Shown piece by piece: positions 35,539 to 49,653 of a stretch of 64,000 nucleotides of DNA (the first letter of the stretch is position 1; each line of letters begins with the position of its first letter). Position numbers and translations under genes: made by a program. The stretch is from Nitrospirota bacterium (lineage in GTDB: Bacteria; Nitrospirota; Nitrospiria; Nitrospirales; Nitrospiraceae). Below the pieces are notes generated by a model. That model made no database searches and had not been told where the DNA came from. It worked only from the letters and a program-made list of their open reading frames with translations. The DNA lies in NCBI GenBank assembly GCA_040755395.1, contig JBFMAX010000002.1, forward strand, positions 124,001-188,000, given 5' to 3'.

Positions 35539-36026
35539 TCGCGGCCTTTTCTGAATCCCTGTCTGGCCTGTTGCGTGATCTCCCCGATATCCATCCCCTG
35601 CGCTTGACAGCAACATGGATGGCCTTCTCCCCGGCAATCGATCTTTTCCCCCAAATTTTTTAGTGGGTTCCAAAAATCGTCAGCAGATGGACAACGAATG
35701 GACAGCAACGGACGCAGGCGTACAGTTCTTTCCCCCTCCTGTAGCACGTCATCAACGCCTCACGATCCGCGCGAGTTCGACAATATTTTCAGGCGTTGGG
35801 CGTTTCGCGAGAAAACGACGACAAGGGCTGAACTTAGGTGGGCATGGAAGTTGCTGGACTCCCCGTTTTGGACATTGAACATTCTTCTCGCCAGGCGAGT
35901 GCTTATGGGATCGACGCCAGCTCACACCGCAATATCCATATCCATTTCCCGTTTTCCAATACACGCTTCCCCAACAGCTATACTCGGAAACAGGGCCATG
36001 GAGGGATTCCATCCAAGGAGGACATC
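35539..36026. other. 488-bp intergenic region
   Basis: Separates the cobamide cluster from the DUF3365 gene. I see no convincing gene here. An open frame runs in from 35838 to the DUF3365 gene but has no ribosome-binding site or signal and is read as leader. A sequence with the GG-N10-GC spacing of sigma54 promoters (ggcatggaagttgct, around 35841-35855) is the only possible regulatory site noticed, and it is weak. Confidence 0.5.
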
Positions 36027-36755
36027 ATGAACGTGCGAGTCTTCGCGCTGATTCTCGGGTTGTCCGCCGGCATGGTGCTTTTGGCCGTGGGCGCGAAAGC
36101 CGCGGACGAATCCGAAACGGCAGACCTCTTGATCAAGTTGTTGAAGGTCGGGCGCAAGGTGGTATCTGACCATCAACCGTTGATCAACGATGCGTCCAAA
36201 GGCAACAAAGGGTTCACCCAAGATTTCCTGGCCAGCCAAGTGATCGAACGGTTCAGGAAACAAACGAAGATCGATCTGAGCCGACCCGGCGGCGTTTCCA
36301 GCGCGCCGATCCTGCTGAGCCTGCTCGAAGCAGAGAAGGAAGTGGTCGATGAAGCCCAGCCGGTCATCAACAAACAGGGTGTGGGATTCAAAGGATTTCT
36401 TCCGGCGGTGTTCGCCCGCAAGACCGGAGAAAAGTTCTACCGAAAGACCGGGATCCGGCTGAAGCTGACTGGAGCGGATTACCGCTATCCGGGGAATAAG
36501 CCCGATGAATTTGAAGCCGAGGTCTTGCGGATGTTCGCCGATCCCCGCCATCCCAAGGGGCAACCTTACAGCAAAGCGACGATGGTCGGCGGGAAACCGG
36601 TGCTCCGAGTGATGGATCCCGAGTATGCGGCGCCGACGTGCCTGACCTGTCACGGAACTCCGAAAGGGGAGCGCGATATCACGGGGATGAAGAAGGAAGG
36701 ATGGAAAGAGGGAGACTTAGCCGGAGCGATCAGCTTGACGATGCCGCTGAAGTAG
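36027..36755 (+). CDS. DUF3365 (Tll0287-like) periplasmic haem protein
   Basis: A 242-residue exported protein. Signal peptide (LILGLSAGMVLLAVGAKA), then a DUF3365 domain ending in TCLTCHGTPKGERDITG, a CxxCH haem c site (Cys205-His209), and the typical final strand DLAGAISLTMPLK. Members sense or bind haem in the periplasm and often sit near chemoreceptors or kinases. It is encoded directly upstream of the chemosensory cluster. Ribosome-binding site aaggagg fixes the start at 36027. Confidence 0.87.
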   Translation: MNVRVFALILGLSAGMVLLAVGAKAADESETADLLIKLLKVGRKVVSDHQPLINDASKGNKGFTQDFLASQVIERFRKQTKIDLSRPGGVSSAPILLSLLEAEKEVVDEAQPVINKQGVGFKGFLPAVFARKTGEKFYRKTGIRLKLTGADYRYPGNKPDEFEAEVLRMFADPRHPKGQPYSKATMVGGKPVLRVMDPEYAAPTCLTCHGTPKGERDITGMKKEGWKEGDLAGAISLTMPLK

Positions 36756-36849: not shown

Positions 36850-37212
36850 ATGAGCAAGATCGTCGTTGTGGATGACTCCTATGCCGAACTGCAGATGATC
36901 GAGGGGTATTTGAAGTCGGCCAACCATACCGTCGTATCTTATCCCAATGCCGAGAAACTGGAAGACAAGATTGCCGCCGACAAGCCGGATCTTATTATTC
37001 TCGACGTTGTGATGCCGGGCAGGAATGGATTCCAGGCCTGTCGTGATCTGAAAAACGATGAACGGTTTAAGAATATTCCAGTCGTGCTCTGCACCTCCAA
37101 AGGGCAAGAGAGCGACAAGTTCTGGGGACAGCAGCAGGGCGCCAATGGGTACGTCGTGAAACCGTTTAAAGCCGAGGACTTGCTGGCGGCTGTGAAGCGG
37201 GCGCTCAATTGA
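36850..37212 (+). CDS. CheY/PilG-like single-domain response regulator
   Basis: A 120-residue receiver domain: acidic pair in VVVDDSYAELQMI, phospho-acceptor Asp in LIILDVVMPGRNGFQACRDL, CTSKGQESDKFWG, and the conserved Lys in GYVVKPFKAEDLL. The LDVVMPGRNGFQ style with a KGQ/SDKFWG loop is that of PilG/PilH and related regulators of the type IV pilus chemosensory class. It heads the chemosensory cluster; ribosome-binding site agaggag. Confidence 0.92.
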   Translation: MSKIVVVDDSYAELQMIEGYLKSANHTVVSYPNAEKLEDKIAADKPDLIILDVVMPGRNGFQACRDLKNDERFKNIPVVLCTSKGQESDKFWGQQQGANGYVVKPFKAEDLLAAVKRALN

Positions 37213-37246
37213 GTGCCCGCCTGCATGGCCAGCATCGTTGACGAGG

Positions 37247-37747
37247 ATGGAGCTCGCGGAGACCGTCCCATCACAGCTTAGCCCCGCTGCGGAACCACAG
37301 CCAGGGGACACGCCACACCGGATCTGTCTCATCACTCTTGGAGAGGAGCTGTTCGCCGTCGACCTCAAGCATGTGCGCGAGGTCTTCGAGGTGGAGTCCG
37401 TTACCCCGGTTCCGGGTATGCCCTCGACCCTCATCGGCGTCGCGAATCTCAGAGGCACCGTCATGCCGCTCGCTGATCTGCGTCCCGTACTGGGTTTGCC
37501 TGTCTCCGGTCCGCAACCCAAGTACGCCGTCGTGGTTCGATACGGCGCGCAGCAGGTTGCGGTATTGGTCGACCAAGTTCCTGAGATTCACAATATCCAC
37601 ACCAGCGAAATCCTGGAGGCTTCCACGCACGGGGCTAAGGGTGTCAGGTCGTTCGTTTCGAGCATTGTCAAAGTCGGCGAGCGGATGGGTGGATTCGTCG
37701 AGATTCCGACCCTATTGGCCTGCGTGGAAGCAGGCGAAGGTAATTGA
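37247..37747 (+). CDS. CheW-like coupling protein
   Basis: A single CheW domain linking receptor and CheA kinase: ICLITLGEELFAVDLKHVRE, VTPVPGMPSTLIGVANLRGT, VMPLADLRPVLGL, and VLVDQVPEI. About 166 residues from the ATG at 37247; an in-frame TTG at 37238 is also possible. Lies between cheY and the receptor gene. Confidence 0.92.
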   Translation: MELAETVPSQLSPAAEPQPGDTPHRICLITLGEELFAVDLKHVREVFEVESVTPVPGMPSTLIGVANLRGTVMPLADLRPVLGLPVSGPQPKYAVVVRYGAQQVAVLVDQVPEIHNIHTSEILEASTHGAKGVRSFVSSIVKVGERMGGFVEIPTLLACVEAGEGN

Positions 37748-37840
37748 TGAACGGCGGCAAGGGAGCCGCGATGCGTTGTGTGAGGCAAGTTCCGGCGACA
37801 CGCATCGTCGTTGAGGAAGTCGAGCGAGAAGGAGGGCGCC

Positions 37841-39727
37841 ATGGCGCGGCAGAATGTGACGAAATGGGCGATTCAGACGTGGTTTAAGAATCTAAAAACC
37901 TTGCCCAAGCTGGTCCTCGGGTTCTCCAGCGTGGGCGTGGTGATGATCGCGGTCGGTATCATCGGTCTGATCGGGCTTCAGCAACTGCGAGAGCGGTTGC
38001 GGATCGTGTACGAAGGGTCGACGCAGGCCCTGGTCAACCTCGGGGCCAGCAGCAGCAACCTGGGGTTGTACCACGATGCGATCCTGAACGCGGGACGGCT
38101 GACCAGAAAATCCGACTTCGAAGATGCGCTCCAACCCCTGGCGGAACTGAAACGAAAAACTTTGGAGCCTCTCGAAGCCTATGCCCAAACGCAGTTGCGG
38201 GTGTCTTCCAGCGGACGAAGCGAAGCCAAGGACTTGGAGCTGCTCAGAAAAGCCCTGGGCGAATATTTCTCCTCCGCTGAAGGCGCGATGAGCGCGTTTG
38301 CCGACAGCTTCTCCCCGACGTTGAGCGAAGACCAGCGCCAGGCGATGCGAGACCTCGGCGGACTGGCCCTCTCGGTGGAAGTCGCAAACAAGTACAACGC
38401 CGCCACCGTTCAGGTTCGAGAGCTCCTCGCGACCATTCGGGAGATCGCTAAGGACTTGAACGATCAGGGACAGGCTGAAGCGACGTACCGAACGCAAATC
38501 GTGCTCGCCGGCGCGCTGCTGGCGATCATCATCGGCGGCACCATTGGATACCTCTTGGCGCGTTTTTTCTCTCGAGGCGTCACTCATATTGCGCAGGTAG
38601 CCGAGCAAGCCGCGGCCGGCAATTTGCAGGCCCGAGCCAAGGTGGACAGCGCGGACGAATTGGGGCAGATGGCCAAGTCGTTCAACGCCATGCTTGACCG
38701 AATCACCGCCCTCGTCCAGACCGAAGAAGAACGGGATGCCATGCAGAAGCGGCTGATGCAGTTCCTGGTGCTGGTCTCGGATGTCGGCAAGGGTGACCTG
38801 ACGAAACGCGGTGAAGTAACAGCCGACATGTTCGGGAACCTGGCGGACGGCTTCAACCTGATGTTGGGACGGTTCACCCAACTGATGAAGCAGGTCCGGG
38901 AAGCCGCGCAACGCGTGAACAAGTCCGCAGGTGCGTTGCGGGAGACGGCCGGGCAGATGGCCGGAACCGCCAAACACCAGGCCGATGAATCCGTGAAAAC
39001 CTTGGCTGCCGTCGAACAGCTCGCCCTGTCCATGCGGCAAGTCGCCGAGACGGCTGGAGCCTCGTCCGAGAGCGCCAAGCAAGTGCTGCAGGCGACCGAA
39101 CGCGGCCGTATCGCCGTGCAGGAAACCGTGCAAGACATGCAAAGCATCCGGGCGGCGGTGCAGCGGATGTCCAAGCAGGTCAAAGCTCTGGGCGATCGCT
39201 CGTTGGAAATTTCTCAAATCGTATCGACGATTCGCGACATCGCCTCACAGACCAACCTGCTGGCCTTGAATGCAGCCATCGAGGCGGCCGGCGCGGGCGA
39301 AGCCGGAGCTCGGTTTGCCGTGGTCGCGGATCAGGTGAGAAAGCTGGCCGAAAGCTCGACGCAGGCCACCCGCGAAATCGCGGACCTAGTGAAAGTCATT
39401 CAGACGGAAACCCAAGACGCCGTCGTGGCGATGGAGCATGAGACCCAGGCGGTGGAGGCCGGGTCGGCTTCGGCGCTTCGGACAGGCGACGTGTTCAAAG
39501 AGATTTCGGAGATCGCCCAGCGATCGGCGGAGTTGGCGCAAAGCATCGCGAACGCGGCCGCCGAGCAGACCGCGTCCACGGACAAGGTGGGCCGATCGAT
39601 CAAAGACTTTACCGGAGGCGCGGTGGCGACACAGAAGGCCACGGACGCCACGCGACACACCATCGAAGACATGGCCAAGCTGGCCGAGAGTCTGACGGCC
39701 TCTGTTGCGCAGTTCAAGCTCGCGTAG
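37841..39727 (+). CDS. Methyl-accepting chemotaxis protein (PilJ-like)
   Basis: A 628-residue receptor. First membrane segment at about residues 26-48, a periplasmic four-helix-bundle-like sensor, second membrane segment at about 220-242, a HAMP domain, then a second HAMP-like unit ([20 protein letters not shown]). The signalling domain shows the hairpin-tip motif [20 protein letters not shown]. The doubled HAMP region resembles PilJ. Start at ATG 37841 with gaaggaggg just upstream. No CheR or CheB gene is in the cluster. Confidence 0.92.
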
Positions 39728-39772: not shown

Positions 39773-42700
39773 ATGAGCAGCGACTTTGATCGCGAGTCCT
39801 TGATCAGCATTTTCGTGGCCGAAGCCACGGATGGTATAACGACCTTGTGGACCGCCTTGCATCCCGCCGGGCAAATGATTCCTGCAAAGGAGATGCTGCA
39901 GGAACAGCACGTGATCGGCCACAAGTTGAAAGGAGCGGCGCTGATTTATGGCTATTCCGGCCTCGCCAAGCTGGGAGAAGCGCTGGAGACGATTCTCGAA
40001 CAAGCGTCCGCCGTCTCTCAATCGGACTGGCCTCGCGTCGTTTCGGCCTTGCGGGAACTCGTCAAGATCTTTCGCTCGCAACTTGAAGTCATTGGGCGTG
40101 GCGGGCAGGAAGATATCGGCCTGATCGAGGAATGGACGCGGCGTTGCGCCGAGCTGATGCCCTCGCCCCCCGCCTCCGGACACAGCGATGCTGCCGACCC
40201 AGATGTTGAATCGCTTGCCCCCGATTATCTGGTCCCGAATCTCGATGCCGAAGTGCTGTCTTATTTTACGCCCGAGGCGCAAGAATACCTTGAGGTGATG
40301 GAAGGACTCTTGCTTCGGTTGGAGAAGACTCCCGAGGATGCCGAGAGCATCCAGCACTTGTTCCGCACCGCGCACACATTGAAGGGTTCCGCCCACACGG
40401 TCGGATTCCAAGCGATCGGCGATGTCGCGCATCCGGTGGAGGATTGCTTGGGCGCTGTACGCGAAGGTCGGCTTCGGATGTCTTCCGGACTCATCGATCT
40501 GATCTTACGCGCGGTCGATGTGATCCGGACTCTGATGCGCCGGGACCCCGGCAATCTGGAGCGGCTCCGACAGGACGTGCTTTCGATCACGAGAGCGCTC
40601 CGTCAGGCAGAAGATGGCGAACGAGTTGAGGTTGGCCACGGTTCCCCCTCTCCAACCGATCCTCACACCAATGAGGACCTGCCCCATCGGGCCGATCATG
40701 TTGCCCAAACTCCGACTCATGTCGGCGCCGCACCGGAAGTTGTTGACGTCGAAGAAGAGTTGTCTGACAGCTATCTCGTACCTGATCTCGACGCCGAAGT
40801 GTTGTCCTATTTCGCGCCCGAGGCGCAGGAATACATCGAGACGATCGAAGCGCTGGTTCTTCGCCTGGAGAAAGAGCCGCAAGACCGGGACACCATCCAT
40901 CAGCTCTTCAGAACGGCGCACACGTTGAAGGGTTCCGCCTATACGGTCGGGTTCCAGGCGATCGGGGATCTCACCCACCACGTTGAAGATTTCATGGGGG
41001 CGGTGCGAGACGGGCGAGTGCAGGTTATGTCCGGCCACACCGATGTCATTCTCCGTGCCGTCGATGTGGTCCGGGTCCTGATGCGGCGTGATCTCGGCAC
41101 GATTCAGCAAACCCGAGCGCGTTTCGCCGCGGTCATGCGGGACCTCAAGAAGTTGGACCAGCTTCAAGCAGTCCAGGGTCAGACGGAGGATCAATTTAAG
41201 GCCGAACCGAGCGGCGGGGTGCAAACCAACGAACAACAGGAGCGGCCGGACGTTGAACAGCAGAAAGGTCAGGAGCCGAAGGGACAAGAGGAACGGGAGG
41301 TTATTCGGGTCAGCCGCGATCGGTTGGAACACCTGCTGAACCTCGTCGGCGAATTGGTGATCGGACGCGGCCGTCTCGAGCAGCGTCTTCTCGTTCTTGA
41401 GCAGTTATCGCATCAGGTATTGGCTTGCAAAAACCGGCTTGTGGATTCGGTCCGGACGTTCGAGGACAAGCATGCGTTCTCCTATACCCCGCCGAGCATT
41501 TCTTCGGGCCCGGTCGAATCTCCCGCGCCGGCTTTCCCGGGGCTCAGCGATTTCGGAAGTCTGGAGTTCGATAAATACGACGACTTCAACATTCTCGCCC
41601 GCCGCATCAGCGAGGTGACGGCCGATATCAGTGAGTCGATGTCCCAGCTCAGCGGGTCGATCCGCCGAGCTCGCGAAGATATGAGCCAGCTTCAGCAGTT
41701 GACGCTCGGTATGCGGGACGAAATCGCCAGGGCTCGCATGGTTCCCATCGGCTCACCGTTTACCCGGTTCCGTCGCGCTACGAGGGAGATGGCGCGCGCG
41801 ACGGGCAAAGAAGTCACCCTGGTGACCTCCGGCGAGCATACGGAAGTGGACACGGGGATCGTCGAGCGACTCGTCGATCCGCTCATTCACCTGGTCCGAA
41901 ACGCCGTCTATCACGGCATCGAGCCGACAGCGGTCCGAATCGCTCAGGGAAAACCGGCCCAGGGCACCGTCTATCTGCACGCGGCGCATCGCGGCAATTC
42001 GGTGATTATCGAGGTAGAGGATGATGGAGCCGGTCTCGATGTCGACAGAATCAGGGCGAAAGCGGTCGCCTTGGGTCTGATCAGACCGGAGATCGCGCAA
42101 TCACTGCCGGAGTCGGAAGTGATCAAATGCATTTTTCTTCCAGGATTTTCGACGGCGGAGCAGGTCGGTGATCAGGCCGGACGTGGAGTCGGGTTGGATG
42201 TCGTCAAGCGGGTGATCGAAACGATGAACGGGCATCTCGACGTCGAATCGGTTCGAGGCGTCGGAACCAAGTTCACGTTACAGCTTCCGCTGACGCTGCT
42301 CATCGCCACCGCATTGATGGTGCGGATCGGACCAGAACGCTATGCGATCCCGTTGCCCAGCGTGCGCGAAGTCACGATGCCGTCTCCAGGATCGATCCAG
42401 CCGGTGGCGGATCGCACCATCCTCCGAATCGGCGACGAGGCGATCGAAGTGCAACCCCTTCAGCGGCTCCTGCAGATGACGACGGAACCATCGGAGGGGT
42501 TTACGCCCATCGTGATTGTTCGTACCGCGTCCGGTCCGCTCGGGCTCTCGGTCGACGAACTGCTTGGCCGCCAGGAGATCGTAATCAAGACGCTGGGTTC
42601 GTTGAAACCGCTCAAGCGTTCCTGCTTCGGCGGCGCTACGATTGACCCGGAAGGCCGCGTGATTCTGGTGCTGGACATCGCTAGGCTCGTCACCGGTCGA

Positions 42701-43183
42701 GGCGACGAGCCGATTGCATGGTCGGGGCAGGCCGTTCCGCAACTCGTATCAGGTGAAGCGCAGAGCAATGATGGCGGAACGCCCGAAGCGGTCCCCACAG
42801 ACTTGCCGATTCTGCTCATCGATGATTCGTTGAGCATTCGTAAATTTGTGGGACGGATGCTCGAGTCCGCCGGTTATCGCGTGGATACGGCAGTTGACGG
42901 CGAAGATGGGTTGCGGAAAGCCTCGACCCAAGCGTATCGGCTGATTATCACGGACTTGGAAATGCCCAAGCTCAACGGGTATGAAGTGATCCAGGCGCTC
43001 AGAAGCCGGCCACAGACTCAAGCAACTCCGATCCTCGTAATGACGACTCGCGCAGGCGAGAAGCATCGACAAATGGCCATCGGCATCGGCGCGACCGCTT
43101 ATATCGCCAAGCCGGTCGAAGAACGGGCTTTAGTCCGTGAGGTAGAACGATGGCTCAGGCGCGAAGCGGCTGCGAGAGTTTGA
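39773..43183 (+). CDS. CheA/ChpA-type hybrid kinase with three HPt domains
   Basis: A 1136-residue kinase. HPt domains have phospho-acceptor histidines at His50 (GHKLKGAA), His201 (AHTLKGSAHTVG) and His383 (AHTLKGSAYTVG). The second and third HPt units, with their flanks, are near-identical tandem copies. Then come the dimerisation region, the HATPase domain (HLVRNAVYHGIEP; DDGAGLD; GRGVGLDVVKRVI), a CheW-like domain, and a C-terminal receiver with IITDLEMPKLNGYEV and a Lys in YIAKPVEERAL. The layout resembles ChpA/PilL kinases that control type IV pilus motility. Partners are the adjacent MCP and CheW proteins. Confidence 0.93.
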   Translation: MSSDFDRESLISIFVAEATDGITTLWTALHPAGQMIPAKEMLQEQHVIGHKLKGAALIYGYSGLAKLGEALETILEQASAVSQSDWPRVVSALRELVKIFRSQLEVIGRGGQEDIGLIEEWTRRCAELMPSPPASGHSDAADPDVESLAPDYLVPNLDAEVLSYFTPEAQEYLEVMEGLLLRLEKTPEDAESIQHLFRTAHTLKGSAHTVGFQAIGDVAHPVEDCLGAVREGRLRMSSGLIDLILRAVDVIRTLMRRDPGNLERLRQDVLSITRALRQAEDGERVEVGHGSPSPTDPHTNEDLPHRADHVAQTPTHVGAAPEVVDVEEELSDSYLVPDLDAEVLSYFAPEAQEYIETIEALVLRLEKEPQDRDTIHQLFRTAHTLKGSAYTVGFQAIGDLTHHVEDFMGAVRDGRVQVMSGHTDVILRAVDVVRVLMRRDLGTIQQTRARFAAVMRDLKKLDQLQAVQGQTEDQFKAEPSGGVQTNEQQERPDVEQQKGQEPKGQEEREVIRVSRDRLEHLLNLVGELVIGRGRLEQRLLVLEQLSHQVLACKNRLVDSVRTFEDKHAFSYTPPSISSGPVESPAPAFPGLSDFGSLEFDKYDDFNILARRISEVTADISESMSQLSGSIRRAREDMSQLQQLTLGMRDEIARARMVPIGSPFTRFRRATREMARATGKEVTLVTSGEHTEVDTGIVERLVDPLIHLVRNAVYHGIEPTAVRIAQGKPAQGTVYLHAAHRGNSVIIEVEDDGAGLDVDRIRAKAVALGLIRPEIAQSLPESEVIKCIFLPGFSTAEQVGDQAGRGVGLDVVKRVIETMNGHLDVESVRGVGTKFTLQLPLTLLIATALMVRIGPERYAIPLPSVREVTMPSPGSIQPVADRTILRIGDEAIEVQPLQRLLQMTTEPSEGFTPIVIVRTASGPLGLSVDELLGRQEIVIKTLGSLKPLKRSCFGGATIDPEGRVILVLDIARLVTGRGDEPIAWSGQAVPQLVSGEAQSNDGGTPEAVPTDLPILLIDDSLSIRKFVGRMLESAGYRVDTAVDGEDGLRKASTQAYRLIITDLEMPKLNGYEVIQALRSRPQTQATPILVMTTRAGEKHRQMAIGIGATAYIAKPVEERALVREVERWLRREAAARV

Positions 43184-43266: not shown

Positions 43267-43794
43267 ATGAGCCTTCGAGGTCATAAGACTGTCGCGACCC
43301 CTGTCTGCACGAGCGTGCGGTTGCTGGTCGCCGACTGTGGAAATACGTACTTGGCTATTCCGGCCGACGTAGTCCGCGGTATTTTGAAGCCGGAGCAGGT
43401 ATCCGACAACGATGTCCTGTCTTTCCATGGCGTGAGCTATCCTCGCGTCGATTTAGCCGGGCGTTTCGGTCTTCGTAGAAAAGTGTCCGGTGCCGAGGCG
43501 CGAGTAATTCTCTGCTCCGAGGGTGACCGCTATTGTGCCTTTAAGGTCGACCAAGTGATCGGTCTGGTCGAAGTCGGACGTCCCAGCATGCTGCCGTTGC
43601 CGGCGCAGTTCCGGGGCGAAGAGCGCCGATGGTTCGGCGGCCTGTTCTTGTTCCACGAAACGGCGTCTCTAGTCCTGAATCCCAGGTGGATTCTGGAGGA
43701 AAGTCTTCAGGCGTCTACCGAGAATCAGCCTGATGCAGCGTTGACTTCTCCGAGCGCAGCTCCGAGCCTCCTCGGTATGCGTCTGCCGGTCTGA
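43267..43794 (+). CDS. CheW-like domain protein (divergent)
   Basis: A 175-residue protein with a weak CheW pattern: VRLLVADCGNTYLAIPADVV, VSYPRVDLAGRFGLRRK, and YCAFKVDQVIGLVEV. It has a short unstructured C-terminal tail. Position directly after cheA supports a coupling or adaptor role in the array. Confidence 0.75.
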   Translation: MSLRGHKTVATPVCTSVRLLVADCGNTYLAIPADVVRGILKPEQVSDNDVLSFHGVSYPRVDLAGRFGLRRKVSGAEARVILCSEGDRYCAFKVDQVIGLVEVGRPSMLPLPAQFRGEERRWFGGLFLFHETASLVLNPRWILEESLQASTENQPDAALTSPSAAPSLLGMRLPV

Positions 43795-43822: not shown

Positions 43823-44287
43823 ATGTTAAGGAGCACGCGTCAGGAGTCCGACGTCAAGCGGTCAAGATTGTGCGGTTTGGTGGTGTTTTCGGTCGGAGGG
43901 CAACGCTTGGCAGCCAGGGCGGAAGAAGTGGGCGGAGTGTCGCATTGGCCTGAGACCATGCCGGTTCCAAGCGAAACTCCTTTTGTGAAGGCCGTGGCTC
44001 GGCGTGAGAAAGAAGTCTTGCCGGTGTTTGATTTTGCGGAAAGGCTGAACGTACACGTACAGGGCACGACGCCCCTGTGCCTGGTCGTCAAACACGAGGA
44101 CGGCCCGATGGTCATTCGCATCGACGAAGAGATTCCCGCTCTGCAGATGGTCGAGCGGTCAGCCGTTCAGCCTTACAGCGGCTCCGATCCAGACATCGTC
44201 GCAACGTATGTCGACGGAGCCCAGCGTATCCCAATCTATTCGCTGGCCAGGTTAGGCAAGATGGGCACCGAGAGATCACCCGCATAA
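43823..44287 (+). CDS. CheW-like domain protein (second, divergent)
   Basis: A 154-residue protein: LCGLVVFSVGGQRLAARAEE, FVKAVARREKEVLPVFDFAE, LCLVVKHEDGPMVIRIDEEI and DPDIVATYVDG match CheW secondary structure with low sequence identity. With two other CheW-type proteins in the cluster, it may compete for receptor or kinase sites; that is inference. Confidence 0.72.
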   Translation: MLRSTRQESDVKRSRLCGLVVFSVGGQRLAARAEEVGGVSHWPETMPVPSETPFVKAVARREKEVLPVFDFAERLNVHVQGTTPLCLVVKHEDGPMVIRIDEEIPALQMVERSAVQPYSGSDPDIVATYVDGAQRIPIYSLARLGKMGTERSPA

Positions 44288-44318: not shown

Positions 44319-45485
44319 ATGCCGAAGATTCTGGTAGCAGACGACAGCATCGCGGTGCGAAAAGTGGCCGAGCGCCTCCTGACCGAAGCCGGGCTCGGGG
44401 TCATGCTCGCCGCCAACGGAGAGGAGGCTATGGCCGTCTTGTCGAAGGAGCAGCCGGACCTGATCGTTTCCGACGTGATTATGCCGGATAAGAGCGGGTA
44501 CGAAGTCTGCGCATTCGTCCGCTCGCAGGCGGCTTTGTCTGACACGCCCGTCCTCTTGATTTCGGGCATCGTCAATGACGAGGTGACAAGACAGGCAGAG
44601 TCATGCAAGGCAGACGGGGTGCTCAAGAAGCCCTTCCAAGGGACGTCGCTGAAGGACCGGGTTCTCGACCTGCTTTCCAGGCGCCCACAGCGGGATGCCA
44701 CGCCAACTCCGGCCACGGAGGCCGGCGCTCACACCAATGGCTCGGTTGCGGCGTCTTCCGTTAAGCCGGAGGAACCGCAGAAGGCTCCCGATATTGGTCA
44801 GGCACAACTGGAAGCCTTGCGGCAAGCCGCTGCTCGCCTGGGAGAAGCAGAGGTAGCCCTGCGGGCCGAACGCGAACGAACGGCCCAACTCGCCCAACGG
44901 ATCGCGGAATTGGAACGGGAATCGGCGCGGACGAAGGAGCTCGAAGCGCAGCTCGCTGCGGAACAGGAGCGATCCGCTATCTTGGAGAAGCGTGCGACGG
45001 ATGCGGAGCTGGTAGCGGGGCGGGTGCAGGAACTCGAAGCGGCACTCAGTGCGGAGCGCGATGCGGCTGCGCAGTTGGTTCAACAATTCAATGAACTCGA
45101 GCCAGCCGCCAGGCGAGCCGGAGAACTTGAGGCCTCGCTGGCGGCTGAACAGCGCCAAGCGGCTGAACTGTCGCAGCGATTGGCCGACGCACAACGACAG
45201 ATCCAACGGATGGGTGAGCTCGATGCGGCGCTGGCAACCGAACGAGAGCGGGTCGCGCAGCTCAGCCGACGGGTTGTCGAGGCTGAATCGGCCGCCGGTC
45301 GCGTGAAAGAGCTGGAGGCGCTACTCGCAACGGAGCGCGAACGCGTCGAGCAAGCGACGAAGCGGGCCTCGGATTCGGAGTTGGCGGCCCAGCAGGCGAA
45401 TAAGCGGCTTGAAGATATGGCCAGGAAATTGGCCGAAATCGCGGGACTGGCTTCTCAACTCGGCAATGGGAAGAACAAGCTCTAA
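44319..45485 (+). CDS. Response regulator with long C-terminal coiled coil
   Basis: An N-terminal receiver (residues 1-125: VADDSIAVRKVAERLLTEAG; LIVSDVIMPDKSGYEV; LKKPF) is joined by a short linker to about 230 residues of continuous heptad repeat. The coil is built from a recurring segment of roughly 30-40 residues of the type ELEAALAxERERxAQLxxR with AGRVKELEA. No DNA-binding or enzymatic output is present. Such a rod could act as a phosphorylation-controlled spacer or scaffold at the array or a cell pole; this is inference. Confidence 0.85.
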   Translation: MPKILVADDSIAVRKVAERLLTEAGLGVMLAANGEEAMAVLSKEQPDLIVSDVIMPDKSGYEVCAFVRSQAALSDTPVLLISGIVNDEVTRQAESCKADGVLKKPFQGTSLKDRVLDLLSRRPQRDATPTPATEAGAHTNGSVAASSVKPEEPQKAPDIGQAQLEALRQAAARLGEAEVALRAERERTAQLAQRIAELERESARTKELEAQLAAEQERSAILEKRATDAELVAGRVQELEAALSAERDAAAQLVQQFNELEPAARRAGELEASLAAEQRQAAELSQRLADAQRQIQRMGELDAALATERERVAQLSRRVVEAESAAGRVKELEALLATERERVEQATKRASDSELAAQQANKRLEDMARKLAEIAGLASQLGNGKNKL

Positions 45486-45544: not shown

Positions 45545-46489
45545 ATGATGGCAACTGACGCGGACGACGACGAATTCCAGAAAGAATTGCTCGAGCTGTT
45601 TGCGCAAGAAGCGCAAGAATGGCTCGATCAGGCGGATGCCGCTCTGAGCGAGCTGGAGAGTCGACCTCCGGCGGATCGACACGCGAAGCTCGTCGAGGTA
45701 ATCGCGCGGGGACTGACGAATCTCGGCGGCTCCGCTGCGACGGTGAATCTGCCCGACATCGAGCAATCGACGTTCGCCCTCCTCCCGTTCCTGGAGCATT
45801 TCCGCAATCCCGATGCCGTCATCCAGCCGGATAGCTTCACGTCGTTCCGTCGTGATCTCCGGGGAATTGCGGCAGCGATTCTGCAGCACGCTCCCGCGTC
45901 TTCGACGCAAGTCCTGGGCGACGCCGTGGAGGACAACGATGGAATGGCTTACCGACCGGCGACATTGTTGAACGCACTCAAAGAGCTGCAAGCCGCCCGC
46001 GCCCATGCGTCGGAGCCGAGCAGGAATCTGACAGAGGTCGTGATCCGCAAGCTTGAGCGCGACCTGCAACAGGGGTTGGACCAACTTGACGTGTCGTCGC
46101 TCCGAACCTTGTTGCAAGAACTGCACGGAATGGATGAGCATTTCCTGGAGACCCTGCGTCGCCGCATGCCGGCGATCACGCAAGTAGTGGCCCGTCTCAA
46201 GGAAACCGCTCCCGCCGGTGCCCTGCCGGACCATGGGTTGAACGAGACGATTCGCCAAGTCCAAGACCTGCGTGAGGCCGCCAAGACCGCCAACGCTGAC
46301 CCCATCGTGACATTTTTGACCGGATTGCATAGCTTTTTGACCGTGGTGGCGCAACGCCGGGTCGTACTCGCCGCGGAAAGAATCGAAGCCGTGGCATCCC
46401 GCCTGCCTGTGGTAGTGTCCATGGCTCAACAGTGGGTCGCCGTCGGACAAAATGAGCGGGCGGCGATCGACAAACTTCTGCCCGCGTGA
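45545..46489 (+). CDS. Pseudo-HPt protein with conserved C-terminal helical domain
   Basis: A 314-residue all-helical protein. Residues about 10-115 align with an HPt domain (FAQEAQEWLDQADAALSELE, then TNLGGSAATVNLPDIEQ). At the phospho-acceptor site the usual HTLKGSAHTV reads TNLGGSAATV: His is replaced by Thr58 and the Lys by Gly. The C-terminal half (LHGMDEHFLETLRRRMPAIT; LTGLHSFLTVVAQRRVVLAA; MAQQWVAVGQNERAAIDKLL) has a close copy at the end of the HD-GYP protein at 47449-49653. It probably acts as a non-phosphorylatable docking or inhibitor module in this chemosensory system. Confidence 0.72.
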   Translation: MMATDADDDEFQKELLELFAQEAQEWLDQADAALSELESRPPADRHAKLVEVIARGLTNLGGSAATVNLPDIEQSTFALLPFLEHFRNPDAVIQPDSFTSFRRDLRGIAAAILQHAPASSTQVLGDAVEDNDGMAYRPATLLNALKELQAARAHASEPSRNLTEVVIRKLERDLQQGLDQLDVSSLRTLLQELHGMDEHFLETLRRRMPAITQVVARLKETAPAGALPDHGLNETIRQVQDLREAAKTANADPIVTFLTGLHSFLTVVAQRRVVLAAERIEAVASRLPVVVSMAQQWVAVGQNERAAIDKLLPA

Positions 46490-46625
46490 GACTTGCTTTC
46501 CGTTCCGTCGATGGCGGCATCGGATTCCATCCACCTCAACTTTCGCAAGTTCTTGACTAATCGTCGGATTCGGACTAAGTGTTGACCAAGGATTGCTGCA
46601 CAAGCGCAGCATGGATGGGTGCAAC

Positions 46626-47420
46626 ATGCACTACGAAGAGTATTGGGGTTTGCGGGAGGCGCCCTTCGAAAACGTACCGGATCCCCGGTACTATTTCCCT
46701 TCGGTCAAGCACGAGTCGGCACGGCAACGGCTGCGATATGGGATTCAGGCGCGCAAAGGAGCGGTCATGTTGACCGGAGAGATCGGGTGTGGAAAGACGC
46801 TGCTGAGCCGGGAGCTGATTGTGAACCTCCCGAGATTCCAATATGACATTGGGTTGGTCGCGAATCCGGCGCTGCAGGCGGGAGAGTTTCTCTCCGAGGT
46901 GCTCTACCAATTCGGGATCGAACCCGCCGGAAGCAAAGTGGAGCAGGTCCGCGGTCTGAACGATAGGCTGTTGACCAATCACGAACAGGGGCTCGATACT
47001 GTGCTGATCGTCGATGAAGCGCAGGCCATCGAAGACGACCACGTTTTCGAGGACCTCAGGCTTCTGCTCAACTTCCAACTAAACCATCGCTTCCTGCTGA
47101 CGCTGGTACTGATGGGGCAACCGGAACTGAAGGAACGGGTCGAACGAAACCCACAACTCAATCAACGGATCAGCATCCGATATCACCTTGCGCCCTTCAA
47201 CGCCGAGGAGACACGCGACTATATCGTCACCCGCATGACCGCGGCCGGCTGTCAACATGAGGTGTTTACCAAGGACGCCGCTTGCCAGATCTTTGAGCAC
47301 ACCCGCGGCGTGTGTCGGCTGATCAATTCGCTTTGCGATCTCTGCCTCTTGCTGGGGGCGATGGACAAGGCCGAGCGCATCGACGCCGGCCTGGTCGATC
47401 ATGCCTGCCAGATGGCGTAA
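46626..47420 (+). CDS. ExeA/GspA-like AAA ATPase
   Basis: A 264-residue ATPase: N-terminal YWGLREAPFENVPDPRYYFP, Walker A TGEIGCGKT, Walker B VLIVDEAQAI, and the C-terminal RISIRYHLAPFNAEETRDYI...GVCRLINSLCD, as in ExeA/GspA-type and MshM-like proteins of secretion and pilus systems. It lacks the C-terminal membrane and peptidoglycan-binding parts of full ExeA. Start at ATG 46626 chosen because the family begins MxxYxYWGLxxxPF. A paralogue is at 58765. Confidence 0.85.
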   Translation: MHYEEYWGLREAPFENVPDPRYYFPSVKHESARQRLRYGIQARKGAVMLTGEIGCGKTLLSRELIVNLPRFQYDIGLVANPALQAGEFLSEVLYQFGIEPAGSKVEQVRGLNDRLLTNHEQGLDTVLIVDEAQAIEDDHVFEDLRLLLNFQLNHRFLLTLVLMGQPELKERVERNPQLNQRISIRYHLAPFNAEETRDYIVTRMTAAGCQHEVFTKDAACQIFEHTRGVCRLINSLCDLCLLLGAMDKAERIDAGLVDHACQMA

Positions 47421-47448
47421 CCGATCGGGGACACAAGGCATTCCGGTG

Positions 47449-49653
47449 ATGGAGAGGCACGGTCAGAAGGCGAACGAGCGGCCCGGTTTGATTCCTCCCG
47501 GCGGCGCGCGATCCGATCGCCATGACGGTCCCGCTCGGTCCGATCCGCTGTCGAGCGAAAACTGGTACGGGCGCGCCGAGCAAGAGCTCTTGCGGATCGC
47601 TGCCGCAGTTCGACAGGAACGGGACTTCAGCCTGGACGAACTGTCCATCATCGCAACCGGCATTGTGTCGTCGATCCGGGCGAGCGATCGGCTCGTCGTG
47701 CAAGCGCTTTCCAGTCCAGCCGGAGATCCCCTCATTACCAACCTTGTCAACGTCGGGATCCTGGCGACCAAAGTCGGGATGGGGTTGGCCTATTACGGAG
47801 CGGAGCTGGAACGACTTGCCTTGGCCGGACTTACGCACGACATCGGAATCTTTGCCGTGCCTCCATCATTAGTGACCAAATCCGGGCGACTGACGCAGGA
47901 GGAGCGGGCGCTGATTGAGCGTCATCCGGAGCTGGGATTCCGCCTCATGAAGAAACTCGACCGCGAGTACGACTGGCTGGCGCAACTTGTGCTGCAAGCT
48001 CATGAACGCCTGACCGGGCAGGGGTATCCCAACAAACTCAAAGGGCGGCAGATCAGCGAAATGGCGCAGATTATCGGCGTCGTCGACGTGTTTGATGCGC
48101 TAGTCAGCCCGCGGCCCTACCGACGACGGCTGCTGCCGCATGAAGCGATACGAGAACTGCTGGTGACGGAAAGGACCTCCTTCCCGAGAGAAATCATGAA
48201 GGCGCTCGTCGAGCAATTATCCGTCTATCCGCTCGGGACCATCGTCCGGCTGAATACCGGTGAGACCGGAGTGGTTGTCCGCATCAATCCGCGGTATCCC
48301 ATGCGGCCGATTGTACGGGTCAATGAAAAGCAAGGACCGGGGGACTCTACCTATTCCGACGAGATCGACTTGAGTATCGCGCCGTTGGTTTCCATCGTGG
48401 AAACGCTCGATCCTCCGGCCGTCGACCGGGTCTCTTTTGCATCCGGACCTTTCACTCCGCCGCCGCCTTCGCTGAAAGCGGGGTCGGCGTCCGAGCAGTT
48501 TTCCGTTCTCCTTGAAAGTCTCGACGCCATTGCCTCAGCAATCCAGACGGTCGTGGAGACGAAAGCCAGGAACGGTGCCGATGTCGAGGCGTCGTCCGTT
48601 CAGATCGACCAGGCGATTTCCCTGACGCCGGTGAGCGACACCGGAGACGCGCTTTTCCATAAAGAGGTGTTGGGGCTCTTCGCCTTGGAGGCGCGGGAAT
48701 GGCTTTCGCAAATCCAAGGCGCGTTGGAGAAATTGCAAGGGGAACCGTCGCTCCACTTGCGCGCCAAGTTGGCGGATGTGATCCTCCACGGCATCACCAA
48801 TTTGGGTAAGTCGGCCGCCACTGTGCGGCTGCCCGACATCGAGCGCATGGCGTTCAGTCTGGTGCCCATCCTGCAGTCGGTCGGAGGCCAAGAAGTCGTC
48901 GCGACAAGCGAACAATTTGCTTCCTTGCAAGAGGGGATTGACCGTATTACCGCCGCCGTACGGGATTTGACGGCAGGCAGCAACATCGTCGGAAACATCG
49001 CGGCTACAGGCTGTCGGGCCCCTACCGTAACCGACTCGGGGCGCGCTGAGCGGGTCCATCCCGAGATGCCGAAGCAGGAGCCGTCGCAAGCCGATGTCGA
49101 ATCACGGAGGGTGACGGGTTCCGCCCCGATCCTGGACGTCCTGCGTGACTGGCGTCATGCGAAGACCCGATCCGTCGAGCCGACACGCGATGTGTTGGAT
49201 ACGGTCATCCGGTTGGCCGAACAAGAGATCGAGTGCGGAACCGGGGCGGTCGATGCGCGGGTCATTGAACGAATCTTGCAAGAGCTTGAGGGAATGGATG
49301 AGCAGTTCCTGGGCGAGGTGCAGACACGCGTTCCTATCATCATGCGTGCAGTGTCGGCTCTGCGGAGAAGCAGCGACGAGACGGCGATTTCCAGTGAAAG
49401 CCTGGAGCCGATCATCGCGGAGGTAGAGTTTCTTCATGAAGCGGCCAGAAAGGTCAATGCCTCGGCCATTATGCTGTTTCTGCAAGGACTGCGAACCTTT
49501 CTGACGGTCGCGTCCTATCGGAAGGTGGCACTGGCTCTACAGCGGCTCGAAGCCATTGAAGCCCGGCTCGACGCGCTGATTCCCATGGCCCAACAATGGG
49601 TCGACGTCGGACGCATCGAACGAGCGTCGATCGGTGAGATCCTCCCGACCTGA
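47449..49653 (+). CDS. HD-GYP-type phosphohydrolase fused to a pseudo-HPt module
   Basis: About 734 residues. The HD domain has THDIGIF (His130-Asp131), the second motif IERHPELGFRLM, and HERLTGQGYP (His185) with the following PRPYRRRL, the HD-GYP pattern of cyclic-di-GMP phosphodiesterases. The usual Lys after HDIG is Ile here, so activity is uncertain. From about residue 400 the protein repeats the architecture of the upstream pseudo-HPt protein: TNLGKSAATVRLPDIE with Thr450 at the phospho-acceptor position, then LEGMDEQFLGEVQTRVPIIM and MAQQWVDVGRIERASIGEIL. It links the chemosensory cluster to a possible c-di-GMP output. Confidence 0.8.
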   Translation: MERHGQKANERPGLIPPGGARSDRHDGPARSDPLSSENWYGRAEQELLRIAAAVRQERDFSLDELSIIATGIVSSIRASDRLVVQALSSPAGDPLITNLVNVGILATKVGMGLAYYGAELERLALAGLTHDIGIFAVPPSLVTKSGRLTQEERALIERHPELGFRLMKKLDREYDWLAQLVLQAHERLTGQGYPNKLKGRQISEMAQIIGVVDVFDALVSPRPYRRRLLPHEAIRELLVTERTSFPREIMKALVEQLSVYPLGTIVRLNTGETGVVVRINPRYPMRPIVRVNEKQGPGDSTYSDEIDLSIAPLVSIVETLDPPAVDRVSFASGPFTPPPPSLKAGSASEQFSVLLESLDAIASAIQTVVETKARNGADVEASSVQIDQAISLTPVSDTGDALFHKEVLGLFALEAREWLSQIQGALEKLQGEPSLHLRAKLADVILHGITNLGKSAATVRLPDIERMAFSLVPILQSVGGQEVVATSEQFASLQEGIDRITAAVRDLTAGSNIVGNIAATGCRAPTVTDSGRAERVHPEMPKQEPSQADVESRRVTGSAPILDVLRDWRHAKTRSVEPTRDVLDTVIRLAEQEIECGTGAVDARVIERILQELEGMDEQFLGEVQTRVPIIMRAVSALRRSSDETAISSESLEPIIAEVEFLHEAARKVNASAIMLFLQGLRTFLTVASYRKVALALQRLEAIEARLDALIPMAQQWVDVGRIERASIGEILPT

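Follow-up and report, generated by a model that had tools for sequence, protein, structure and literature searches.

A free-standing and an HD-GYP-fused HPt-like protein without the phospho-accepting histidine, encoded beside a hybrid CheA in Nitrospira-type bacteria

Introduction

The chemosensory gene cluster considered here raises the question of what two HPt-like domains, one in a free-standing protein (HPTx) and one fused to an HD-GYP domain, contribute to a system built on a hybrid CheA when the phospho-accepting His of each is replaced by Thr. HPts of this kind are known from other systems, such as the Xpt domains (Ser/Thr or His-less HPts) of ChpA in the Pil-Chp system of Pseudomonas aeruginosa, which are possible protein-binding scaffolds (PMC12632253, PMC10782961), and AHP6, a plant pseudo-histidine-phosphotransfer protein that inhibits the signaling of its own phosphorelay (PMC3572949). 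Degenerate HD-GYP proteins are known as well, for example DvhD of Desulfovibrio vulgaris, which binds c-di-GMP and does not hydrolyze it (PMC13090378). There are thus precedents for phospho-dead HPts (ChpA, AHP6) and for dead HD-GYPs (DvhD), while the pairing of a stand-alone and a fused copy is new. No description of this architecture, or of a Nitrospira CheA with an HPt domain, was found in the open-access literature, and an earlier note on this DNA knew of none either; its His-less HPts as such have the precedents just named.

Results

Gene cluster

The DNA analyzed (64,000 nucleotides, here termed the window) belongs to contig 2 of a genome of 4.1 Mb, and by the proteins of the cluster its relatives are Nitrospira and allied bacteria. 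All genes of the cluster are co-directional with gaps of 25-103 bases, and they run in the order CheY, CheW, MCP, hybrid CheA, CheW, CheW, receiver protein, HPTx, AAA ATPase and HD-GYP/pseudo-HPt protein (Table 1). All three HPts of the hybrid CheA have an intact HxxKG motif, and the receiver motif of the kinase is IITDLEMP. The AAA ATPase, which starts at TTG 46593 or at a later ATG, has a Walker A (GEIGCGKT) and a Walker B motif (VLIVDE) and scores 211.7 bits against TIGR03015, under the cut-off of 324.5. For the HD-GYP gene, ATG 47449 (28 bases past the AAA gene) is the more likely start, in preference to the upstream ATG 47401, which gives 750 aa and overlaps the AAA gene. Just 5′ of the chemosensory genes (35838-36755) is a protein with a CLTCHG haem-binding motif, by eye a haem-type sensor, which could be linked to the chemosensory signal.

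Table 1. Features of the chemosensory cluster, in window coordinates.
Feature	Coordinates	Strand	Basis
CheY	36850-37212	+	ORF, sequence inspection; receiver motif IILDVVMP
CheW	37238-37747	+	ORF, sequence inspection
MCP	37811-39727	+	ORF, sequence inspection; MCP also upstream of CheA in related loci
Hybrid CheA: three HPts, kinase, CheW domain, receiver	39773..43183	+	Pfam; HPt sequences
Two CheW genes	43267-43794 and 43823-44287	+	CheW E 2.2e-13, 4.8e-11
Receiver domain with long C-terminal helical tail	44319..45485	+	Response_reg E 8.8e-22; motif IVSDVIMP
HPTx, free-standing pseudo-HPt protein, 314 aa	45545..46489	+	ORF; Pfam Hpt residues 14-105; homologues; AlphaFold2 model
HPTx N-terminal pseudo-HPt four-helix bundle, residues 5-115	45557..45889	+	Fold match; residue counts; conservation
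HPTx C-terminal HPt-like four-helix bundle, residues 183-311	46091..46477	+	Model; fold match
ExeA-like AAA ATPase between the two pseudo-HPt genes	46593..47420	+	AAA_22 E 8.6e-20
Degenerate HD-GYP with second pseudo-HPt module, 734 aa	47449..49653	+	HD_5 E 3.6e-30; AlphaFold2 model
HD-GYP domain, residues 39-258	47563..48222	+	PmGH alignment; homologue counts; fold match
Fused pseudo-HPt, residues 398-508	48640..48972	+	Fold match; residue counts
Fused C-terminal HPt-like bundle, residues 603-731	49255..49641	+	Model; same family as the domain of the free copy

Identity of the two helical domains

Both proteins had been read as carrying an HPt-like domain, and the comparisons by Pfam, hhalign and fold bear this out. 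HPTx matches Pfam Hpt (PF01627) with E=1.7e-5, just past the curated cut-off, and the same model is matched at E<=0.01 by 35 of 52 free-standing homologues (best 9.6e-14). In hhalign the HPTx family aligns with 141 CheA HPts at a probability of 97% (E 6e-11), while reversed and other helical controls reach 0.07-0.6% against the same CheA HPt profile, and a chance likeness to the CheA HPt is ruled out by these three results. Taken by itself, the fused copy from the window stays below the Pfam Hpt threshold (E 0.47), and its family matches the free family at 99.95% in hhalign. Structure prediction, which the earlier note had set as a check, gave an HPt-type four-helix bundle in both proteins (AlphaFold2, pLDDT 87 for HPTx and 74 for the HD-GYP fusion). 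The N-terminal domain of HPTx matches the CheA HPt 1tqg with Z 13.6 (2.4 Å, 105 residues) and the fused pseudo-HPt does so with Z 15.9 (1.9 Å, 105 residues), but fold alone would not decide the matter because unrelated four-helix bundles score Z 10-14 in the same structure-match lists. By sequence and fold, the N-terminal domain is an HPt of the CheA type. It is like CheA P1 in fold and sequence profile, and unlike it in that the His, Lys and Glu are replaced and that it lies outside any kinase.

The C-terminal helical domain is common to both proteins, as had been noted (hhalign 99.96%, 43% identity). Its description as unnamed did not stand, since in both AlphaFold2 models it forms a second four-helix bundle that is HPt-like by fold. 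The bundle of HPTx matches CheA P1 1i5n_C with Z 12.1 (2.0 Å, 105 residues), a score that other four-helix bundles also attain. Homology of this bundle to HPts, an idea prompted by matches to designed four-helix bundles and by the fold, is not claimed because hhalign comparison of the domain with HPts found no significant homology, with one reversed control above every real comparison. A comparable domain, Hpt-like by AlphaFold and not by HHpred, is reported in ChpA as a neighbor of its His-less HPts (PMC10782961).

Distribution and linkage

HPTx homologues were found in 128 of the 147 genomes of the family. In 60 fetched loci, where a few divergent copies are labelled by the paralogous HD-GYP query, HPTx accompanies the CheA-CheW-CheW-receiver set and the order of these genes is unchanged unless the locus is truncated, and the immediate 5′ neighbor of HPTx in the loci read is the receiver gene, which makes its product a candidate docking partner. 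All 19 family genomes without HPTx, several of them small or incomplete, also lack this hybrid CheA, their best CheA match being at most 261 bits as against 1088-2494 bits in three carriers. Among 296 genomes of the phylum, full-length matches were limited to members of the family plus a single genome from that order, and the more distant matches covered the HPt part only, in open frames of CheA size. Outside the phylum, a single contig scan with a peptide pattern returned Nitrospira-type titles except for one Omnitrophota and two Nitrosospira labels, which may stem from misbinning or misnaming.

The HD-GYP protein is without its pseudo-HPt half in 13 of the 60 loci, and several divergent relatives have HPTx and no HD-GYP within the fetched stretch. 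A quick tree places the fused copies as two state changes: 15 of them form one group and L093/L094 form a pair, a pattern for which gene conversion or a second fusion event may be responsible. In one genome (L093:10921-14001) the AAA ATPase, the degenerate HD-GYP and the HPTx module form one open frame of 1027 aa, which supports a working link among the three neighbors. Elsewhere (L136:1998-3341) an HD-GYP frame of 447 aa stops inside the pseudo-HPt, through decay or an assembly error, or as an intermediate of fusion loss.

Lost active site and conserved helix

The position of the phospho-His is Thr58 in HPTx (codon ACG, 45716-45718) and Thr450 in the fused copy (codon ACC, 48796-48798; Thr466 if the start is ATG 47401), and the two replacements originally reported are thereby exact by codon, that of Thr450 given the start at ATG 47449. 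No His is found at this position in 88 free-standing homologues (T 81, A 7) or in 42 fused homologues (T 24, S 8, N 8, G 1, A 1); other overlapping and separately aligned sets of homologues give slightly different letters, and His is likewise absent. The Lys of HxxKG is replaced by G, A or V in the homologues counted, and the supporting Glu, which corresponds to E67, the partner of the His in Thermotoga CheA, by L, I, F or V. The 141 CheA HPts used for comparison come from the same loci and were selected by the pattern HxLKG, so that their H, K and G are uninformative, while the Glu, which is outside the pattern, is kept in all 141. The loss of the active site is family-wide and no isolated mutation. 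The HPt had been proposed to be phospho-dead, and the absence of the His, Lys and Glu in all homologues examined agrees with this, the pseudo-HPt domain being by its sequence HPt-derived yet no functional HPt.

The segment around the lost His is the most conserved of the protein. Residues 56-66 of HPTx (helix GxTNLGGSAAT) have a mean entropy of 0.30 bits among homologues, compared with 0.76-1.6 bits for whole helices of the HPt domain and 1.4-2.3 bits for those of the C-terminal region, a contrast that is somewhat flattering because a short core segment is set against whole helices, and G62, S63, A64 and A65 are invariant. Receivers dock on HPts at the His face, as in the complexes of CheA3 P1 with CheY6 (3kyi/3kyj). 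In a domain that was a mere leftover, the surface surrounding the lost His would be expected to degenerate; its being the most conserved instead favors docking, suggests that it binds a receiver and fits the docking role that the earlier note had assigned to it. In the fused copy the His position is poorly conserved (T/S/N/G/A) and the next Gly is replaced by Lys or Arg, so that its docking surface may differ.

Packing can also conserve a helix, and it could account for the conservation seen here, a counterpoint to any docking role. The bundles would then be a structural module for self-assembly or stability only, as in HPTx-HD-GYP dimerization or the joining of CheA arrays, with no receiver bound. 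The presence of two four-helix bundles in each model, both common to the free and the fused copies, is in keeping with this, but the explanation is doubtful, as packing leaves unexplained why conservation peaks around the former phospho-site and why the protein is strictly linked to this CheA.

It is very unlikely that Thr58 is itself a phospho-acceptor (TPt) on which the domain passes or stores phosphate. Thr predominates in the free copies (81 of 88) and phosphotransfer domains of threonine and serine type have been reported for ChpA, but Ala takes the place of Thr in the other seven, the fused copies are highly variable, the Lys and Glu of the active site have also been lost, and the His-less HPts of ChpA were unphosphorylated in vitro (PMC10782961).

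HD-GYP partner

The HD-GYP fold and both motifs are present in the fusion protein (HD_5 E 3.6e-30). In 89 HD-GYP homologues, which include short versions without the pseudo-HPt and whose residues were mapped via an alignment with PmGH, the HD, H250, H277, D305, GYP and R314 are invariant, while every one has N or a deletion at H189, A or V at H276 and I, L or V at K225 (PmGH numbering). The fold matches of the model are led by Bd1817 of Bdellovibrio (Z 21.5), followed by DvhD (17.2) and PmGH (16.9). Bd1817 is an inactive HD-GYP. RpfG lacks E185 and H189 and is nonetheless active; its H276 and K225 are retained. In PmGH, the alanine mutants H189A, H276A and K225A had lost activity (PMC4159591). 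The invariant residues and the activity of RpfG could argue for an active c-di-GMP phosphodiesterase brought by the pseudo-HPt into the chemosensory complex, but this is improbable in view of the loss in all 89 homologues of H276 and K225, two residues that PmGH needs, and of the inactive top match. The HD-GYP partner is probably concerned with c-di-GMP sensing rather than turnover, given that metal ligands and the catalytic Lys are lost and that the top fold matches are inactive or non-hydrolyzing, and the tie of chemosensing to c-di-GMP turnover that had been suggested is disfavored.

Like DvhD and Bd1817, the protein combines the HD-GYP fold with the loss of metal ligands. The degenerate residues are partly different from those of DvhD, which has lost the HD itself and carries a PAS domain, whereas the present protein retains the HD, lacks H189, H276 and K225 and is joined to a pseudo-HPt. 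Two further HD-GYPs of the same genome (L177 and L173; G000:C5:10881 and C1:123041) have the Lys after HDIG replaced (HDIGYLRLP and HDIGLLTVP) and are possibly additional degenerate members; other HD-GYPs there are canonical (HDIGKIG).

Discussion

HPTx and the HD-GYP fusion probably act as binding partners and not as enzymes, because the phospho-His is replaced throughout the family and key catalytic residues of the HD-GYP are lost. To the reading that both are phospho-dead HPt adaptors of a single hybrid-CheA chemosensory system, docking on one of its receivers, we give about an even chance. The HPt fold, the loss of the triad, the conservation of the helix, the linkage to CheA and the degenerate HD-GYP support it. 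The pseudo-HPt would dock on the receiver of CheA, on the receiver-coil protein (44319-45485) or on CheY (36850-37212), in all three of which the receiver aspartate motif is intact, and as it would pass on no phosphate it would compete with the active CheA HPts or scaffold them; the sequestering of CheY-type regulators or of CheA that the earlier note envisaged is hypothetical. The HD-GYP copy would bring a predicted c-di-GMP-binding, non-hydrolyzing domain to the same receiver, and the level of c-di-GMP could thereby modulate the output, perhaps pili or exopolysaccharide and not flagella. A more specific scheme, on the whole unlikely, is that HPTx occupies a site on a receiver for which its paralogue, fused to the dead, c-di-GMP-binding HD-GYP, competes, c-di-GMP then gating the output by competition for docking alone, with neither phosphotransfer nor hydrolysis, and the tandem bundle giving each protein two sites for docking.

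That HPTx is a disguised ordinary HPt, phosphorylated on another His, is the least probable explanation of all, since positions 46 (72/88) and 31 (75/88) are His-rich but not invariant and neither sits where the HPt fold has its active site, and a search of the 88 free-standing homologues for an alternative phospho-His found no invariant one. His31, in helix A, is missing from HPTx of the window.

Among known systems, that of ChpA likewise combines a hybrid multi-HPt CheA with HPts that lack the phospho-His, but the Xpts of ChpA sit inside the kinase, whereas in the present system the domain forms a protein of its own and a second copy is fused to an HD-GYP. The Pil-Chp/Tfp class is marked by a hybrid CheA with several HPts and a receiver, by PilG/PilH and PilJ and by an output to type IV pili; the cluster has a multi-HPt CheA with a receiver and the genome carries PilT homologues, and the cluster may or may not belong to this class. 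AHP6 is also a stand-alone HPt without the phospho-His; it differs in belonging to a plant cytokinin pathway and in having a single domain, and the likeness noted is one of features.

As to output, the host genome encodes another CheA on contig C17, which also carries a flagellin, and it has two PilT homologues, so that the present cluster may act in pilus function or life on surfaces; its assignment as the flagellar chemotaxis cluster was tentatively set aside on the ground of the CheA and the flagellin of C17. A second degenerate HD-GYP without a pseudo-HPt (L184:8279-9310; G000:C2, about 93.3-94.3 kb, outside the window; TTNPVH..., HDVGMFALP, QEHERW) is encoded ~76 kb upstream, directly 5′ of exopolysaccharide genes of Wza-like (export) and Wzc-like (chain length) type. 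The AAA gene of the cluster resembles the XrtA/PEP-CTERM-associated ATPase, and this likeness and the polysaccharide-export neighbor of the HD-GYP paralogue are, like the points above, only hints to the output.

In Nitrospira-type bacteria the pseudo-HPt is a separate, small and highly conserved protein, in contrast to the part of a very large kinase that it is in ChpA, and its partner and effect are therefore directly testable. If the adaptor reading is true, c-di-GMP would have a phosphate-free route onto the chemosensory system in nitrite oxidizers and related bacteria.
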